DNA from: Calditrichia bacterium
Lineage (GTDB): Bacteria > Calditrichota > Calditrichia > RBG-13-44-9 > J042
Assembly (NCBI GenBank): GCA_030430345.1
Contig: JAUIFT010000075.1
Location: forward strand, 1-8,188
Length of the DNA stretch: 8,188 nt
Direction: 5' to 3'
Under the pieces are notes generated by a model. That model had not been told where the DNA came from. It did no database searches and saw only the letters and a list, made by a program, of their open reading frames with translations. Below, piece by piece: positions 1 through 8,188 of this stretch (the stretch's first letter is position 1; each line of letters opens with the position of its first letter). A program made the position numbers and the translations under genes.

Positions 1-1978
1 CAATCGCTCCTTGCAGACCAGCGGTATTCACTTTCATATAGAAATATTCCGGGCTACTGAAGCTCATATAAAACAGGGTGGGATTTGTTTCCAGCTTCAG
101 CGATTCCTGATGATAATCCTTGAGCACACCAATGATAATGGGATTCCAGCGGAAACGGGAGATCGCCAGGGTTTTTCCAATCGCATCTTCCGGACTGGCA
201 AATCCGAGCATTTTCGCGGCACTGGCAGTGATTACCGCAGCAGTATCTTCGTCACTGGGATAACTTTTATCAAATTTTCTGCCGGCAATAACTTCCATAT
301 CGAAAGTATCGATGAAATCATAATCGATGCCGGAGAATGTAAATTGTACTTCTTCTTCCGGAGTTGCGGTATATTTACGCACGCCGGTTTTGAAACGCAT
401 TTTCTTTCCCGGTAATGTGTTTGCCGCGGTGACTTCGCCAATATTATGATTTTCTTTTAATAGATTCTTAAACGCTTCGACATCCTTACCACGTTGCTCC
501 CGGTCCCGGCTGGCGATGCCCGGTCTTTCCACAACCATCATTTGCTCCATGTTGAATCCCAGGTCCCGGGAATTCATATAAGACAGTTGATCATGCACCA
601 CAAAAGTGCCGACCAATAATGCTGCCGATGCAGCAAATTGCAGCACAACGAGAATCTTCCGGAGAAAATTCCCCTGGGCACTGCGGCTGAATTTCCCTCG
701 CAAAACGGTAATCGGTTGAAAAGAAGAGAGCACAAAGGCGGGATAACCTCCGGCCAGCAAAGTTCCACAGATAAACAATCCAACCAACGCCCCCCAGAAC
801 CAGGGCTCGCTCCATAACGGCCAGGAAAAGGAAAGACCGGCCAGTTGGTTAAAATAATTCAGGGAAAGAATTACCAGGGCGACTGCCAACAGCACGGCAA
901 AGAAATTGACCAGCAGCGATTCCGCTAAAAACTGGCGAATCAGTTGACTGCGGAAAGCACCAACCACTTTGCGCAACCCCACTTCTTTCGCCCGTTCCAT
1001 CGCCCGCGCCGTGGAGAGATTGATGTAATTCACCCAGGCAATAATTACGATAAATACCGCGATGATCAGCAAAAAATAGACGGCGTCACCATTGCCGTTT
1101 ATTTCCGCTTCGTCGGTGAGATGGGAGTATAGATGGATTTCTTCCAATGGCTGCAAGCTTAGTTCGTCCCGGCGATTCTGCTCGGCCAGACCGGGATTGT
1201 ATTTATCGACGATCGCCGGAAATTTTGTTTCTAATGCGGCCGGATCGGTGCCTGGTTTAACGGCGATATAAGTATACATATCCTTCCGGCGCCAGGTGGT
1301 GCCGTAACGTTCCGGCGCCCAGTCGCCCCGGCTATAAAGGGTTTCGTAGGAAATCAGCACATCAAATTTTAGGTGAGTATTCGCCGGTGGATCGATGACT
1401 ACACCGGTGACTTTGCAAAGTTCATCGTTATAATCGTCATCTTTCAGATGGAGGAATTTGCCGATGGGATTTTCATCACCAAAGTATTTTTTTGCATACG
1501 ATTCGGAGATCACCATGGTAAGCGGGTCCTTAAGGGCGGTTTTTGCATCGCCCATTACCATCGGGTAATCAAACATTGGCAGGAAGGACGAGTCTGCATA
1601 GAGAAAGCGGCGATGCTTGAACATAATCGGTTCGCCGGGGGCATCGTCATAGGTAATGACCACATTATTCTTTGAGCCGAGGTTATAGAGACGGGCATAT
1701 TCCAAAACTTCCGGCAGCTCTTTCTTTAAAGCCGGCCCCGCACCGGGGTAGTTCTCCGAGCTTTTGAATACCAGGGTGTTATTGGCGAACTGATCCAAAC
1801 GGACCCGATAGATATTTTCAGCGTTGTTAAAACTGTCGTAACTCAGTTCGAAACGCACATATTGGAGAATCAGCAAACACCCGGCAATCCCGATGGCCAG
1901 GCCGAGAATATTAATCGCAGAAAAAATTTTGTGGCGGGATAAATTTCGTAAAGCAATTTTAAGGTAATTTTTGAACAT
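1..1978 (-). CDS. FtsX/MacB-type ABC transporter permease (C-terminus beyond window edge)
   Basis: This is the membrane subunit of a type VII (MacB/FtsX-like) ABC system. Such systems use ATP in the cytoplasm to drive periplasmic conformational change, export or lipoprotein handling. The minus-strand frame is open from ATG at 1976-1978 to the window edge, 659 codons, beginning MFKNYLKIALRNLSRHKIFS. TM1 lies at about residues 19-41, followed by a periplasmic MacB_PCD-like domain at about 45-295. TM2 is at about 300-322, then the FtsX signature (ARAMERAKEVGLRKVVGA, 324-341), TM3 at about 357-378 and TM4 at about 395-418. A second half begins with TM5 at about 442-462 and another periplasmic domain. 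Family members of this duplicated type are about 780-810 residues, so roughly 130 residues with the last three helices are missing here. The start is set by GGAGG eight bases upstream. No ATPase gene is visible. Family is confident; substrate is unknown. Confidence 0.93.
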   Translation of the reverse strand, partial: MFKNYLKIALRNLSRHKIFSAINILGLAIGIAGCLLILQYVRFELSYDSFNNAENIYRVRLDQFANNTLVFKSSENYPGAGPALKKELPEVLEYARLYNLGSKNNVVITYDDAPGEPIMFKHRRFLYADSSFLPMFDYPMVMGDAKTALKDPLTMVISESYAKKYFGDENPIGKFLHLKDDDYNDELCKVTGVVIDPPANTHLKFDVLISYETLYSRGDWAPERYGTTWRRKDMYTYIAVKPGTDPAALETKFPAIVDKYNPGLAEQNRRDELSLQPLEEIHLYSHLTDEAEINGNGDAVYFLLIIAVFIVIIAWVNYINLSTARAMERAKEVGLRKVVGAFRSQLIRQFLAESLLVNFFAVLLAVALVILSLNYFNQLAGLSFSWPLWSEPWFWGALVGLFICGTLLAGGYPAFVLSSFQPITVLRGKFSRSAQGNFLRKILVVLQFAASAALLVGTFVVHDQLSYMNSRDLGFNMEQMMVVERPGIASRDREQRGKDVEAFKNLLKENHNIGEVTAANTLPGKKMRFKTGVRKYTATPEEEVQFTFSGIDYDFIDTFDMEVIAGRKFDKSYPSDEDTAAVITASAAKMLGFASPEDAIGKTLAISRFRWNPIIIGVLKDYHQESLKLETNPTLFYMSFSSPEYFYMKVNTAGLQGAI

Positions 1979-1986
1979 AGGCGACA

Positions 1987-1991
1987 CCTCC
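1987..1991 (-). promoter_or_regulatory. Shine-Dalgarno site of the ABC permease gene
   Basis: Read on the minus strand this is GGAGG followed by eight bases (TGTCGCCT) and then ATG. It is the strongest ribosome binding site in the window and fixes the permease start at 1978 rather than at an internal Met. Confidence 0.8.
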
Positions 1992-2207: not shown

Positions 2208-2299
2208 TAATTGTTGTGTAGGGGAGAAGCATTCTTGGCAACCAATTCTTGCAAACACGACAAGTTCACCAGGAATGCTTCTCCCCTACACAACAATTA
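2208..2299. repeat. REP-like inverted pair upstream of the transposase (31-nt arms)
   Basis: The left arm 2208-2238 and right arm 2269-2299 are reverse complements at 30 of 31 positions (one T/C difference, at 2235), around a 30-base loop. Each arm contains a unit starting GTAGGGGAGAAGCATTC, with GTAG at its base and a near-palindromic GAAGCATTC core. GTAG-type tetranucleotides next to a hairpin are known as recognition features of REP-associated tyrosine transposases. The pair ends 40 bases before the transposase ATG, so the hairpin could also affect transcription or translation of that gene. The arms are longer than those of the other pairs here because they share an extra flank (TAATTGTTGT). 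Confidence 0.85.
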
Positions 2300-2338: not shown

Positions 2339-2959
2339 ATGGGATACAATCCGAAAAAACATCATCGCAAATCAATCCGCTTAGAGGGATATGATTATTC
2401 CAGCACCGGCGCATATTTCATAACTATCTGTGTAAAAAACCGGGAATGCCTTTTAGGGGAAATCAGAAATCGGAAAATGATATTGAACGATTTTGGAAAA
2501 ATAATCGCCTATCATTGGAAAAATATACCGACCCATTTTAAGAATGCGAAATTGGATGAATTCGTGATCATGCCAAATCATTTTCATGGAATTTTGTGGT
2601 TGGTGGGTGGTAAGGATACGGCAACGTATTCTGAAGGGGCGAAGCATTCCTTTAAAAATCCCGAGAATAAATCCACTATCATCGAAAGAAATGCTTCACC
2701 CCTTCATACCGCAAAAACACCCGACCGCCCCAATGGTACCAAACCCGGATCGATATCCGCCATCATCCAAAATTTTTCATCGGTAACCACCCGCAAAATA
2801 AACCGAATCAGGAAAACACCCGGTGAAAAATTATGGCAACGAAATTATTACGACCGGATTATTCGTAATGAAAATGAATTGTTCAACATCCGCCGATATA
2901 TTTTGAATAATGTCCTGAAATGGGATTTGGATTCTGCAAATGGTGATGTGGCGACGTAA
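2339..2959 (+). CDS. REP-associated tyrosine transposase (RAYT, Y1/HUH, IS200-like)
   Basis: A 206-residue single-strand DNA transposase of the TnpA-REP branch of Y1 HUH enzymes, which nick and rejoin DNA at REP hairpins. The N-terminus (YNPKKHHRKSIRLEGYDYSS, residues 3-22, then GAYFITICVKNRECLLGE) is typical of the family. The metal-binding HUH motif is HFH at residues 81-83 within MPNHFHG. The catalytic tyrosine should be Tyr170 or Tyr171 in LWQRNYYDRIIRNE. The C-terminal helix (FNIRRYILNNVLKW) is also typical. ATG at 2339 is preferred because family members begin just before the HHR-SIRL motif. A TTG at 2249 would add 30 residues read through the upstream repeat arm, which is unlikely. No clear Shine-Dalgarno is seen. 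Residues 98-123 are encoded by an internal REP pair. Codon use is A-rich compared with its neighbours, consistent with mobility. All key motifs are intact, so it may be active. Confidence 0.93.
   Translation: MGYNPKKHHRKSIRLEGYDYSSTGAYFITICVKNRECLLGEIRNRKMILNDFGKIIAYHWKNIPTHFKNAKLDEFVIMPNHFHGILWLVGGKDTATYSEGAKHSFKNPENKSTIIERNASPLHTAKTPDRPNGTKPGSISAIIQNFSSVTTRKINRIRKTPGEKLWQRNYYDRIIRNENELFNIRRYILNNVLKWDLDSANGDVAT
2632..2706. repeat. REP-like inverted pair inside the transposase coding sequence
   Basis: The left arm 2632-2648 (TGAAGGGGCGAAGCATT) and right arm 2690-2706 (reverse complement TGAAGGGGTGAAGCATT) match at 16 of 17 positions around a 41-base loop. The core GGGG.GAAGCATT is the same as in the flanking pairs. 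The GTAG base is altered to TGAAG. The segment is translated in frame as residues 98-123 of the transposase (EGAKHSF at one arm, RNASPLH at the other), between the HUH motif and the tyrosine motif. This is a non-conserved linker position in the family. Confidence 0.82.
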
Positions 2960-2962
2960 TCC

Positions 2963-3088
2963 GTAGGTGTGAAGCATTCCGTCTCAAATTCAGAGATAAG
3001 TCCTCAATATTGCCGGGAATGCTTCACACCTACAATAACAACACATTCAATAAATCCACGATCTCTCCCGGGAATGCTTCACACCTAC
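2963..3088. repeat. REP-like cluster downstream of the transposase (one forward, two reverse units)
   Basis: A forward unit at 2963-2980 (GTAGGTGTGAAGCATTCC) starts three bases after the transposase stop. Its perfect 18-base reverse complement occurs at 3016-3033 and again at 3071-3088. The two reverse copies share a 23-base identical block (3013-3035 and 3068-3090), 55 bases apart. Any forward/reverse pair can form an 18-bp hairpin. The cluster sits between the convergent ends of the transposase and the methyltransferase, so it could act as a bidirectional terminator or mRNA-end stabiliser, as known for some REP/BIME elements. The remaining 3091-3160 shows nothing recognisable. Confidence 0.85.
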
Positions 3089-3160: not shown

Positions 3161-3961
3161 TTATGCGCCCGATTGAAAAAGAAAAAAATTGTAACTCTTA
3201 TTTTCTGCAAACGCGGCCGAATCAATCAGGGCCAGCTGTTCTTTGCTCTTCTCGATCTTCTTGCGGAAATACCACTGCAGGAAGCGCAGCAGGTGGGGGT
3301 GTTTGGCGCGGATCTTTTCGGTGCCGATATCCACGGCGAGAAAAAGTTTATCTGCGAAATTTTTCGCAATATCCAGGGTTTTGGTAATGTCGGGAGTAAT
3401 GTCTTTTTCCTGAACGATAGTAAAACCAGCGTCCTCTGCCCGGGTGAGGAAATTTTCGAGATTATGACCACTTTTCGCAAGAATACCGCTGGCATCGCTT
3501 TTTACGAAGTAATCGCAAACAATGAGATGACCATTCGCTTTCAGGGCGTTATTCACTGCCGGGAAGAATTTTTCCAGATTGATGTATTGCGCCGATTCAC
3601 TCATGATCAAACAATCATATTCCTTTTGCGGCTGAAAATCTTCAAAAATACAGTGATGAAAAGGCACATCTAACGATTCGGTAAACAGCTTCTGCTGATT
3701 ATTGTCCGGGGAAAGCCCCTCGACGTCATAGCCTTCCGCGATGAGGCGCTTGCTCATGATACCAGTGCCGCAGCCGACATCCAGCACGCTCTTCACGCCT
3801 TTCGGGATACTATTGATCAAGAGACTTTCGTAGCGTTCCTGGGCGACCTTCAGGTTATCGATAGTCAGTTCATCTTCCGGGAGCCAGAGGCCGTAGTGAA
3901 GCCGGTCCAGTTCCAGTACTTCGTTGTAGATTCGTAATGCGCGATCATTTTGCTTGCTCAT
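3161..3961 (-). CDS. Class I SAM-dependent methyltransferase
   Basis: A 266-residue cytoplasmic methyltransferase with the Rossmann fold. SAM-binding motif I is VLDVGCGTG at residues 59-67, followed by the acidic region VEGLSPD (80-86) that replaces the usual ribose-binding acidic loop. The post-motif strands ECLIM-like (YDCLIMSESAQYI) and HLIVCDYF follow in the expected order. The N-terminal stretch RLHYGLWLPED (20-30) resembles the Y-x-x-G-x-W segment seen in small-molecule methyltransferases such as those acting on tocopherol, sterols or glycine, which suggests a small-molecule rather than nucleic-acid acceptor. No substrate can be assigned. The start ATG (3959-3961) is preceded by GAAGGA five bases upstream. 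It is convergent with the transposase and divergent from the peptidase, so it is probably transcribed alone. The C-terminus is basic and aromatic (LRFLQWYFRKKIEKSKEQL), with no membrane segment. Confidence 0.88.
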   Translation of the reverse strand: MSKQNDRALRIYNEVLELDRLHYGLWLPEDELTIDNLKVAQERYESLLINSIPKGVKSVLDVGCGTGIMSKRLIAEGYDVEGLSPDNNQQKLFTESLDVPFHHCIFEDFQPQKEYDCLIMSESAQYINLEKFFPAVNNALKANGHLIVCDYFVKSDASGILAKSGHNLENFLTRAEDAGFTIVQEKDITPDITKTLDIAKNFADKLFLAVDIGTEKIRAKHPHLLRFLQWYFRKKIEKSKEQLALIDSAAFAENKSYNFFLFQSGA

Positions 3962-4428: not shown

Positions 4429-6666
4429 ATGAATCGTATCTATTTGCATTTTCTCGCTTTAATCCTCCTATTTTCCACCATTACAATTGGACAACCCGAC
4501 TTAACGCTGGAACGAATATTTACTTCCGATGAATTCAAGCTATCCCGTTTCGGTCCAGCCCGCTGGCTGGAAGACGGCAAGGGGTATACCATTTTGGAGA
4601 CATCGCCGGAAACCGGGGGCGAGGACATCATACAATACGATCCGGTCAGTGGGGAACGAACGATTCTAGTATCCAGCAAGTCACTAACCCCGGAAGGGCG
4701 TAATCAACCGTTAGCAATTGATGATTACCAATGGTCGAGCGACAAGAAACGCCTGCTCATATTCACCAACACAGTGAAAGTATGGCGCGATAATACTCGT
4801 GGTGATTATTGGGTGCTGCATCTGAAATCCGGTAAGCTTCAACAATTGGGTAAAGATGCGCCAAAACCTTCTACATTAATGTTTGCAAAATTTTCCCCGG
4901 ACGGAAAGCGTGTTGGTTACGTTCGGGAGAATAATATCTATGTCGAGACACTGAAAAGCGGAGAAATTCTGGCAATTACGACCGATGGCTCGGAAACGAT
5001 CGTCAACGGCACTTCAGACTGGGTTTACGAGGAAGAGTTCTCCCTGCGCGACTGTTTTAGCTGGAGCCCGGACGGAGAAAAGATTGCCTACTGGCGTTTC
5101 GATAAAAGTAGCGTCGGTACTTTTTACATGATCAACAATACCGATAGCATTTATTCCCGCCCGATCCCCCTCCCCTACCCGAAAGTCGGCACTACCAATT
5201 CCGCAGTGCAGGTTGGGGTAATTTCCGCGAAAGGTGGCACGACTACCTGGTTTAATATTCCCGGAGACCTGCGCAACAATTACGTACCGCGTATGGAGTG
5301 GGCAGCCAATTCGAAGGAAGTGATGATTCAACGGATGAATCGCCTGCAGAACACCAATACCCTGCTGCTTGGCGACATCAAAGACGGTTCAGTAAAAACC
5401 GTCATGGTAGAAAAAGATGATGCCTGGATCGATATTCATGACAACCTGAAGTGGTTCGAAAACGGCAACTATTTCACCTGGCTAAGTGATCGGGATGGCT
5501 GGCGGCATCTCTACCTGATCTCCCGCGATGGCAGCAGCCAGCAGCTCCTCACACCGGGCGATTATGATATTGTCAGAATTGAAATGATCGATGATAAGGG
5601 CGGATGGGTGTATTTCATCGCTTCGCCGGATAATCCTACCCAGCGTTACCTCTATCGCGCCTCGTTGGACGGGAAAGGGAAAACAGAGCGCCTGACGCCG
5701 GCGGGCCAACCGGGCATTCACAGTTATCAAATTTCTCCGGGGGCGAAGTGGGCATTTCATACCTTCACCAGTTTTGGCATCCCGCCGGCGAATTCGCTGA
5801 TTAGCCTGCCGGACCATCGCCAGCAAAAATCCCTCGTTGATAATAAGGATGTTAAAGACCGTGTCGACAAATTAGCGAAAACGCCGGCAGAATTCTTTCG
5901 GGTAACCATCGAAGGGAATATTGAGCTGGATGCCTGGGAGATGCGCCCTCCCAATTTCGCCCCCAACAAGCAATACCCTTTACTGATGTTCGTTTATGGT
6001 GAACCCGCCGGGCAAACGGTGCTGGACCGCTGGAGAGGTAATCGCTATCTCTGGCATCTTTATTTGACGCAGTTGGGCTATGTTGTCATCAGCGTCGATA
6101 ATCGCGGCACGCCCGGCCCCCGTGGCCGTAACTGGCGGAAAATCATTTACGAACAGATCGGTATTCTGGCATCTGCCGATCAGGCGGCGGCAGTAAAAGC
6201 ACTCCTTGCCAGTAAACCTTACCTCGATCCGGAACGGGTTGGCAGCTGGGGCTGGAGCGGTGGAGGTCAGATGACGCTTAATGCACTTTTCCGCTATCCG
6301 GAAATATACCGCACCGGTATTGCCCTCGCTTTTGTTAGCGATCAGCGGCTCTATGACACCGTCTACCAGGAAAGATTTATGGGTTTGCCAACAATGAACA
6401 AAGACGGTTACATCAACGGTTCCCCGATCACCTTCGCACATCGCCTGCAGGGTAATCTTTTTATTGCACATGGCACCGGCGATGACAATGTCCATTACCA
6501 GAGCTTTGAAAGGTTGGTAAATGAGTTGATCCTCCATGACAAGGATTTTTCCATGATGGTCTATCCCAATCGCAGTCATTCCATCAATGAAGGCGAGAAT
6601 ACATCCCGGCACCTTTTTCGGCAAATGACCAACTATCTTCTAGAAAATTTACCGTTGGAAAAATAA
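4429..6666 (+). CDS. Exported S9 family peptidase, dipeptidyl-peptidase IV-like
   Basis: A 745-residue serine peptidase matching the usual 720-770 residues of the DPP IV (S9B) family, which removes N-terminal dipeptides, usually X-Pro, from peptides. A Sec signal peptide (residues 1 to about 21, MNRIYLHFLALILLFSTITI) sends it to the periplasm or beyond. An N-terminal beta-propeller (about 30-490) contains the double-Glu motif DWVYEEEF (197-204; Glu202 and Glu203 should bind the substrate amino terminus) and a WR pair with Arg120, aligned with the substrate-binding Arg of human DPP IV. The alpha/beta-hydrolase domain holds Tyr523 (oxyanion hole), nucleophile Ser610 in GWSGGG, Asp685 in HGTGDDNVH with Asn687, and His717 in NRSHSI. 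All catalytic and exopeptidase-specific residues are present, although GWSGGG replaces the classic GWSYGG. There is no C-terminal sorting domain. It is transcribed alone and is convergent with the amylase. Confidence 0.93.
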   Translation: MNRIYLHFLALILLFSTITIGQPDLTLERIFTSDEFKLSRFGPARWLEDGKGYTILETSPETGGEDIIQYDPVSGERTILVSSKSLTPEGRNQPLAIDDYQWSSDKKRLLIFTNTVKVWRDNTRGDYWVLHLKSGKLQQLGKDAPKPSTLMFAKFSPDGKRVGYVRENNIYVETLKSGEILAITTDGSETIVNGTSDWVYEEEFSLRDCFSWSPDGEKIAYWRFDKSSVGTFYMINNTDSIYSRPIPLPYPKVGTTNSAVQVGVISAKGGTTTWFNIPGDLRNNYVPRMEWAANSKEVMIQRMNRLQNTNTLLLGDIKDGSVKTVMVEKDDAWIDIHDNLKWFENGNYFTWLSDRDGWRHLYLISRDGSSQQLLTPGDYDIVRIEMIDDKGGWVYFIASPDNPTQRYLYRASLDGKGKTERLTPAGQPGIHSYQISPGAKWAFHTFTSFGIPPANSLISLPDHRQQKSLVDNKDVKDRVDKLAKTPAEFFRVTIEGNIELDAWEMRPPNFAPNKQYPLLMFVYGEPAGQTVLDRWRGNRYLWHLYLTQLGYVVISVDNRGTPGPRGRNWRKIIYEQIGILASADQAAAVKALLASKPYLDPERVGSWGWSGGGQMTLNALFRYPEIYRTGIALAFVSDQRLYDTVYQERFMGLPTMNKDGYINGSPITFAHRLQGNLFIAHGTGDDNVHYQSFERLVNELILHDKDFSMMVYPNRSHSINEGENTSRHLFRQMTNYLLENLPLEK

Positions 6667-6703: not shown

Positions 6704-6747
6704 GTATCCCCGTGGCAAAAATTCATGAATTTTCGCCACGGGGATAC
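6704..6747. terminator. Bidirectional hairpin terminator between peptidase and amylase
   Basis: Arms 6704-6716 and 6735-6747 (GTATCCCCGTGGC and its perfect reverse complement) enclose a centre that is itself a perfect 16-base palindrome (6718-6733, AAAATTCATGAATTTT). The whole can fold as about 20 pairs with one mismatch. It lies in the 105-base gap between convergent genes. The T-runs are not immediate: TTTTTT at 6768-6773 on the plus strand, and the minus-strand T-run is opposite A 6664-6669. Termination is therefore likely but not of the textbook form. Confidence 0.65.
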
Positions 6748-6771: not shown

Positions 6772-8188
6772 TTATTTCATCAATAATAATTTCTGCGTCT
6801 TCATCTGATTATTCCAGCTAATTCGCAGATAGTAAACCCCACTGGACTGTCGTCCCGCATCCCAGCGTTTTTCGTGCATGCCTGCTTCCGCATATTCATT
6901 CACCAGGGTAGTGACCTGCTGCCCCAACGCATTGTAGATAGCAACGGTTACCTGGCCACTTTCCGGGATTTGAAAACGGATATTGGTTGCCGGGTTAAAC
7001 GGATTGGGATAACTGGGCATCAATTCAAATGCATTGGGTAGCTGAGCGGCAATATCCTCATTCTCGCTAACCACCTTGGATGAACTGTAAGCGAGATAAT
7101 CGGACTGCTTCACCCACACCGCATAGCCGCGGGAAGGTGCGGAGACATATACCCGGCCATCACTATAGACCTGGGTAGTCTGCGTATTATCATAGGCATT
7201 GACCAGGGTAGTATTCGCCCAATTGGAAAATCCGCTCGGGGAACTGTCTACCCAAAGTCCTTTAGTTTGCGAATCGTGATTGTTGATCACAACAATCGCG
7301 CCATCGCGGGTGCCATTGCCCTGACGGCGGGCGGCATAAACGTGATAGGTATCGCCGGACGGCCAGGGATTGCCAGTCTGGCTAAGCACATTGATTGTCC
7401 CGCCGAGATAGTTCTTGCGAACAAAATTCAGCTTATTGATATCATCCTGCAGGCTGCCCGGGGCAGTCACCTGGTAGCTGGAATTATGCGCATCTATCTG
7501 GGTGACGCCAAAGTAGTGAGGATAAAACACGCAGGGGCGGCCTTCGTGGGTAAGGATGTAGGCATAAGCCATATCGAAATCCTTCGTCAGCCATTTGTCA
7601 TGCTCTTTGCCGGTATCATGGTTATCGACAAAGGTAACCACCGAAGTGCCGGGCAGACCGTTTCCGGAATTATTCCGGACCATCCCGGCATGGTTCAGGG
7701 AGGACATATCGAAGCTGCTCTGGTTGCCATTACTCATGCTAGTCAGTGTAAACTTCAGGGGAAAATCGAAGCCATCGACATCCGCACCATTGCTGGCGAC
7801 ATTGTTCACCCAGTTTTTAATCCGGTAATCGGCGCCCCAATATTCCCCGACGATGAAACGCTGGCTGCCATTCAGCAGCGGCAAATTATCCACCCAATCC
7901 GCCACAAAGGATTCCTGGAACCCACGGACGAAGTCGAGGCGAAAACCATCGAAGCCGATTTCGTCAACCAGCCACTCGCCCCAGTCTTTCAGGCGGGTTT
8001 GCTCAACAGTACCAAAGGTATTGATGTCATTGCCAAAAAACTTGGTGTTGGTGATAATTTCGTCGCTGCCGGGAAAGCCCAGCCAGTCGTTATTATCAAC
8101 CGGATGAAAATTGCTGTAGTTCCAGGTATAATTCGGCTCCCCGGTGCCCGTGTGGGTTGGGTAACTGATACCGGTATTGGTGCGCGCT
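6772..8188 (-). CDS. Secreted GH13 alpha-amylase with C-terminal sorting domain (N-terminus beyond window edge)
   Basis: An extracellular endo-acting starch hydrolase cleaving alpha-1,4-glucan bonds. The frame is open from the right edge to TAA at 6772-6774, giving 471 residues. It runs through the GTG at 7905, so that codon is an internal Val, not the start. Conserved GH13 region II is GFDGFRLDFVRGF, with the nucleophile Asp at 7933-7935. Region III is VGEYW (acid/base Glu at 7843-7845). Region IV is FVDNHDT (Asp at 7615-7617). FVRGF, VGEYW and HEGRPCVFYPHYF resemble the plant/archaeal-type amylase subfamilies (GH13_6/7). An amylase C-terminal beta-domain follows (about 7080-7400). The last 85-90 residues, from LPNAFELMPSYPNPFNPATN to TQKLLLMK, form a FlgD-like/Por-type sorting domain used for type IX or related secretion. 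Region I, the N-terminal barrel strands and the signal peptide lie outside. No carbohydrate-binding module is visible. Confidence 0.94.
   Translation of the reverse strand, partial: ARTNTGISYPTHTGTGEPNYTWNYSNFHPVDNNDWLGFPGSDEIITNTKFFGNDINTFGTVEQTRLKDWGEWLVDEIGFDGFRLDFVRGFQESFVADWVDNLPLLNGSQRFIVGEYWGADYRIKNWVNNVASNGADVDGFDFPLKFTLTSMSNGNQSSFDMSSLNHAGMVRNNSGNGLPGTSVVTFVDNHDTGKEHDKWLTKDFDMAYAYILTHEGRPCVFYPHYFGVTQIDAHNSSYQVTAPGSLQDDINKLNFVRKNYLGGTINVLSQTGNPWPSGDTYHVYAARRQGNGTRDGAIVVINNHDSQTKGLWVDSSPSGFSNWANTTLVNAYDNTQTTQVYSDGRVYVSAPSRGYAVWVKQSDYLAYSSSKVVSENEDIAAQLPNAFELMPSYPNPFNPATNIRFQIPESGQVTVAIYNALGQQVTTLVNEYAEAGMHEKRWDAGRQSSGVYYLRISWNNQMKTQKLLLMK

Follow-up and report, generated by a model that had tools for sequence, protein, structure and literature searches.

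An inverted REP pair translated in frame within a RAYT gene of a Calditrichia bacterium, and the matching of inner and flanking REPs among related loci

In-frame REPs within the genes of TnpAREP enzymes have already been described for subclass 2.4 of these proteins (Quentin et al., 2018; PMC6006769, accessible text), and intragenic REPs have been reported from other genes as well, e.g., uvrA, recB, and genes of tRNA-modifying enzymes (Di Nocera et al., 2013; PMC3733652, accessible text). According to the accessible part of PMC8266576, the GTAG motif is required for both binding and cleavage by TnpAREP from E. coli; single changes in GTAG left binding by the S. maltophilia TnpAREP intact, and its cleavage was reduced or abolished. 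With regard to the long-term matching of RAYTs and REPs, a REP residing inside the enzyme gene directly records which REP that gene has encountered, and makes it possible to ask whether the enzyme and its substrate move jointly. The locus described here is one more example of the known arrangement, and a comparison of 158 open reading frames (ORFs) quantifies the tendency of the inner REP to follow the outer ones.

The window, i.e., the whole stretch of DNA analysed (8,188 nucleotides, contig JAUIFT010000075.1), contains a gene (Table 1) that, judging by its motifs, likely encodes a TnpAREP of the subclass 2.4, or RAYT group 4, kind, where such inserts are usual. Residues 80–83 of the protein, NHFH, conform to the HuH consensus of the subclass, NH[IFV]H, the WQ motif is formed by W166 and Q167, downstream of the insert, and the Y motif retains the tyrosine and the YIxNN part of YIxNNP, with the final P replaced by V (PMC6006769, accessible text). 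Three other features of the subclass are seen: the flanking repeats carry a GT[AG]G foot, which is GTAG in five out of five arms examined; a REP pair is read in frame between the HuH and Y motifs, with GTAG absent from its arms; and the variable extension between β3 and αC corresponds to residues 92–127 of the predicted structure. In the structure model, these residues have pLDDT below 50 and sit between the strand 81–88 and the helix 139–158, and most of the catalytic core has pLDDT above 90. An earlier account of this DNA made from the letters alone (hereafter, the sequence-only reading) had proposed that the gene is a RAYT and that paired REPs of the same family as the flanking ones are translated in it between the HUH and tyrosine motifs; the position and the frame were confirmed, and the identity of both the gene and the insert is supported.

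The match to the NCBIfam family NF047646 (REP-associated tyrosine transposase), which is found in all 50 members of the 50-sequence alignment at E 0.001 or better, reaches 65.1 bits in the window protein, in two stretches and below the curated cutoff of 80. The insert splits the profile match and may thus lower the score; we do not claim the equivalog status for this protein. As for the neighbours, the gene at 2–1987 (minus strand) presumably encodes an ABC-transporter permease, and the one at 6772–8187 (minus strand), an amylase-like secreted enzyme, both assigned by their appearance. Weak NCBIfam matches were obtained for a SAM methyltransferase at 3161–3961 (minus strand) and a dipeptidyl-peptidase-like enzyme at 4429–6666 (plus strand). 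The peptidase-like and amylase-like genes converge, and their ends are separated by a near-perfect 22-nt inverted repeat without a loop (6704–6747, 95% complementary), which resembles a terminator acting in both directions or some further palindromic element.

Table 1. The RAYT gene, its motifs, and the internal and flanking REPs in the window
Feature	Position	Strand	Remarks
5' flanking REP pair	2208..2299		Arms 2208–2238 and 2269–2299, 97% complementary; RNA fold z −12.3
RAYT/TnpAREP gene (predicted)	2339..2959	+	206 aa, ATG start, TAA stop
HUH motif PNHFHG	2573..2590	+	Residues 79–84
Internal REPIN, inverted REP pair	2632..2706	+	Read as residues 98–123
Internal REPIN, left arm	2632..2653	+	GAAG foot replacing GTAG
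Internal REPIN, right arm	2685..2706	-	CTTC on the plus strand replacing CTAC
Y motif YILNNV	2897..2914	+	Residues 187–192; subclass consensus YIxNNP (PMC6006769, accessible text)
3' flanking REP pair	2963..3033		Arms 2963–2980 and 3016–3033, 100% complementary
Extra 3' REP arm	3071..3088	-	

The internal arms 2632–2648 and 2690–2706 are matched at 16 out of 17 positions, as noticed earlier, and without gaps extend to 22 nt with 20 matches. The inverted-repeat score of the element is 16. When the bases of the whole ORF were shuffled 100 times, the score did not exceed 11, and the maximum in 300 synonymous-codon shuffles of the 100-nt linker piece was nine, so that none of the latter reached 16. 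Folded alone, the RNA hairpin has the energy of −29.1 kcal/mol (z −6.8), and the DNA hairpin has z of −5.3 on the plus strand and −6.7 on the minus strand. Because synonymous shuffling and resampling fail to reproduce it, the dyad is a feature of the DNA level and is not forced by the protein sequence.

In the internal element, two inverted REPs enclose a short spacer and form the same unit as in the flanks, that is, the element has the composition of a REPIN: by hand count, the unit from GAAGCATTC to ATGCTTC spans 57 nt in the internal copy and 56 and 55 nt in the 5' and 3' copies, respectively. The core GGGG.GAAGCATT, which the sequence-only reading had ascribed to the flanking repeats in general, is indeed common to the inner and the 5' pairs, whereas the 3' repeats read GGTGTGAAGCATT. 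The feet differ as well, being GAAG in both inner arms versus GTAG in all five flanking arms examined. The alignment of the internal and 3' units covers 92 nt including the loop and scores 36, compared to the maximum of 14 in 500 shuffles; the two loops alone score 10, which was equalled by 28 out of 2000 shuffles. The likeness of these two units does not stop at the REP and goes on for approximately 18 nt upstream, in coding sequence in both cases (2615–2633 and 2945–2963), where it may reflect either a shared target sequence or a larger duplication. The terminal repeat motif of TIRYTs, GGGGWSAS (PMC3733652, accessible text), was not found in the flanking repeats, as the 5' repeat GGGGAGAA deviates in the last letter and the 3' one has GGTG.

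Protein relatives were taken as the best 120 of 7928 hits, from 7992 candidates scored; 112 of these 120 hold both boundary motifs, and the regular expressions for the arm types were picked after inspection. With these post hoc expressions, at least one translated arm was found in 100 out of 112 linkers of the best 120 of 7928 relatives. In the same set, the left arm was of the GAKH type in 66 linkers, of the RGEAF type in 21, and of neither type in 25, and the right arm was NASPL in 83, CFAPT in ten, and neither in 19. At the protein level, the closest protein among these best 120 of 7928 relatives, P0002 (81% identity), contains an insert homologous to that of the window, with the loop residues present too, and in P0003 (74% identity) the left arm is apparently in another frame; thus, REPs appear to be translated in different frames among relatives. 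GAKHS and NASPL are nearly invariant in the 50-sequence alignment, where G100, H103, and N118–L122 are at least 90% conserved.

The insert of P0002 rules out, at the protein level, an insertion that is both recent and unique to the window gene. The sequence-only reading had suggested either a recent insertion or selection for the hairpin; a recent insertion peculiar to this gene agrees neither with this observation nor with the published occurrence of the arrangement in subclass 2.4 (PMC6006769, accessible text). Judging from the comparison, the internal REPIN is not unique and is probably not recent. Linkers of several relatives (P0008, P0011, P0024 among the proteins, and L034, L047, L051, L052, L056 among the loci) contain tandem REP-encoded blocks, hence the loop would grow by duplication too. 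In addition, P0031, P0039, and P0057 have C-terminal extensions resembling translated REPs, with KGEAF and RGEAF endings, and it looks as though translation enters the 3' flanking REP.

Among 82 genomes of the phylum of genome G005, the paired pattern occurs at 17 places in six genomes, 16 of these places being 56–57 nt long; the place in G014, where the GGGG part is absent, could be a chance occurrence. Five out of the six genomes with the pattern also have a RAYT match (threshold E 1e-30), and G066 has three repeat pairs and no RAYT match at this threshold. G049 has nine pairs, of which one lies within the RAYT gene and two are adjacent to it, the other six being found at other places of the genome. 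The sole full repeat pair of the GAAGCATTC type in G005, a genome that may be incomplete, lies within the RAYT gene; similarly, in G400, which may be incomplete as well, only three copies of the tested palindrome were found at no more than one mismatch, all of them within one RAYT gene. The repeat copies being confined to RAYT genes in G005 and G400, the inner copies there come from no evident outside pool. The linker of this G400 locus, L224, holds three stacked copies of one REP palindrome in two reading phases. In G012, possibly incomplete too, an inner palindrome that is not matched by the flanks has seven further genomic copies, and G083 and G048, which have high-scoring RAYT matches, contain no exact copy of the window repeat core. 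Neither an empty linker site nor an insertion event was identified among the loci compared.

For the comparison at the DNA level, 223 loci including the window were considered, of which 30 lacked an ORF with two motifs and 28 duplicates were dropped, yielding 165 unique ORFs; seven of these were dropped due to short flanks or linkers, and 158 ORFs remained. The sample is biased, since 80 out of 568 confirmed loci from genome contigs were kept and whole-genome additions were the best matches only; eleven loci fetched by the repeat pattern (L140–L150) were excluded from the set. Flanks were defined as 400 nt on each side, and a linker–flank match, as a score of at least 13.

Linkers match their own flanks in 73, 62, and 53 out of 158 ORFs at scores of at least 13, 16, and 20, respectively, and the control, N-terminal coding DNA, does so in five, one, and one. 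The same linkers compared with flanks of other loci yielded 120, 48, and 24 matches in 1896 comparisons at the same thresholds. The REP palindromes vary widely among loci, and unrelated REP sequences are common in linkers; hence, a linker match pairs each inner REP with the REP that flanks it at its own locus. When a repeat is common to both flanks, 34 out of 43 linkers match that repeat. The identity between the inner and flanking copies is 0.949, compared to 0.918 between the flanking ones (n = 32), and the inner-versus-flank mismatches in 62 ORFs are spread over the codon positions (62 out of 771, 45 out of 769, and 69 out of 774, respectively).

The hexamer GTAGGG or CCCTAC is present in 133 out of 158 linkers (mean length 157 nt) and 102 flank sets (831 nt), and in 13 N-terminal (261 nt) and 17 C-terminal (208 nt) parts of the same ORFs. 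In linkers, GTAGGG occurs in codon phase 0 at 100 places, in phase 1 at 40, and never in phase 2, which would create an in-frame stop; the first foot lies at a median of eight codons past HUH. The phase differs in 75 out of 229 related ORF pairs, which are not independent. Among related pairs with core identity of at least 0.60 in which each linker matches the flanks of its own locus at a score of at least 16, REPs are switched in 17 out of 58, these pairs being not independent either, as L004 recurs in many of them. The best inverted repeat of the linker exceeds all 19 synonymous resamples in 119 out of 158 ORFs, with approximately eight expected. No match to the own flanks at a score of at least 13 was found in 85 out of 158 linkers; palindromes scoring at least 12 are present in 58 of these 85 and in 45 of the 73 matched linkers, that is, much alike. 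Neither GTAGG nor CCTAC is found in 24 out of 158 linkers, including that of the window.

These comparisons across many bacteria suggest that inner and outer copies change in concert. The sequence-only reading had considered that homologues with the same residues and no dyad in the DNA, or a repeat absent from the rest of the genome, would point to coincidence or local duplication. Neither outcome was observed in the relatives: their dyads exceed synonymous resampling, and one related genome has the repeat scattered over it. Cognate REPs occupy the same loop at loci of several phyla, for which reason both coincidence and a simple local duplication were rejected.

The reading we favour, with a probability of roughly 0.6, is that a disordered loop of the RAYT tolerates inserts and has repeatedly received cognate REPINs, or exchanged one for another, the inner copy turning over with the flanks. 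The internal element would be a REPIN of approximately 75 bp from the flanking family, situated in the unstructured loop that follows the HUH strand and precedes the next helix. The enzyme would process the flanking REPIN family, and REPINs of the current family would enter the tolerant loop or displace older ones, so that the inner copy would turn over alongside the flanking copies and then be inherited between turnovers. We infer entry and replacement because of the cognate matching, the mixed frames, and the REPs stacked in single linkers (e.g., L224). The sequence-only reading had raised self-targeting or autoregulation as possibilities; in the window itself, GAAG in place of GTAG in both inner arms makes efficient cleavage unlikely, and the inner copy is probably a passenger cleaved poorly or not at all, which, if other TnpAREP enzymes are a guide, would be at best bound and not efficiently cut. 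Pure drift following insertion is not a ready explanation, given the strong palindromes in flank-unmatched ORFs. The same palindromes, the confinement of the tested copies to RAYT genes in G005 and G400, and the linkers with unrelated REPs each matching its own flanks lead to a further, tentative suggestion with a rather small chance of being correct, namely, that the inner REPIN serves as a built-in seed: it would preserve the association of the RAYT with its REP family when the gene is transferred horizontally and when the flanks are lost, and could start a REPIN population anew in another genome, the inner copy being kept as a cognate DNA element in any open frame.

Several other explanations compete with the turnover of cognate REPINs. 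The inner hairpin might be selected as a cis-acting element, where putative binding of the RAYT to the non-template or lagging strand, or to the mRNA, would curb its own expression or activity. Dyads exceeding all resamples in the majority of ORFs, and strong dyads persisting without a flank match, conform to this explanation, and the retained binding of altered GTAG by the S. maltophilia enzyme makes a bound but uncut inner site conceivable (PMC8266576, accessible part). We nevertheless consider it unlikely, as the 24 linkers devoid of both GTAGG and CCTAC show that an intact foot is not required, and the varied frames and stacked REPs suggest accumulation rather than one functional site. The opposite direction of descent, with the internal copy being the source of the window flanking REPINs, agrees with the 92-nt likeness of the internal and 3' units, including its upstream part, and with the two genomes where the tested copies reside solely inside the gene; at the same time, two copies give no direction, and GTAG, present in all five flanking arms examined and in neither inner arm, makes the inner copy look derived, so that this origin seems improbable. 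Least probable is constraint at the protein level, where GAKHS and NASPL would be functional residues and the DNA dyad their consequence. The conservation of G100, H103, and N118–L122 speaks for it, but the same DNA is apparently read in other frames in relatives (RGEAF and CFAPT, at the protein level), linkers often contain REP sequences of an unrelated kind, the dyad is not reproduced by synonymous resampling, and the segment is disordered in the structure model. An origin of the dyad from the protein sequence alone was rejected because of synonymous resampling and the differing apparent frames of the translated motifs.

The accessible part of the text on subclass 2.4 (PMC6006769) does not state the number of inner copies matching their own flanks, the mixed frames across loci, or the genomes with inner copies only. 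Compared by that text, the window RAYT differs from TnpAREP of subclass 2.4 in having YILNNV instead of YIxNNP, in the absence of GTAG from the inner arms, and in the make-up of its insert, two inverted copies separated by a spacer. The internal element resembles the REPINs of Bertels and Rainey (PMC3116915, accessible text) in having two inverted REPs, a short spacer, and the unit near the RAYT, and differs from them in that one unit lies within the RAYT coding sequence. Similarly to intragenic REPs and Rickettsia palindromic elements (PMC3733652, accessible text), it is a palindromic insert in frame, translated as 20–30 residues; the latter elements, however, reside in unrelated genes, whereas the host of the former is the presumed mobilising enzyme. 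Finally, unlike TnpA of the IS200/IS605 family (IS608, ISDra2), the window RAYT lacks IS ends, being flanked by REP pairs, and has an extra disordered loop that holds the insert.
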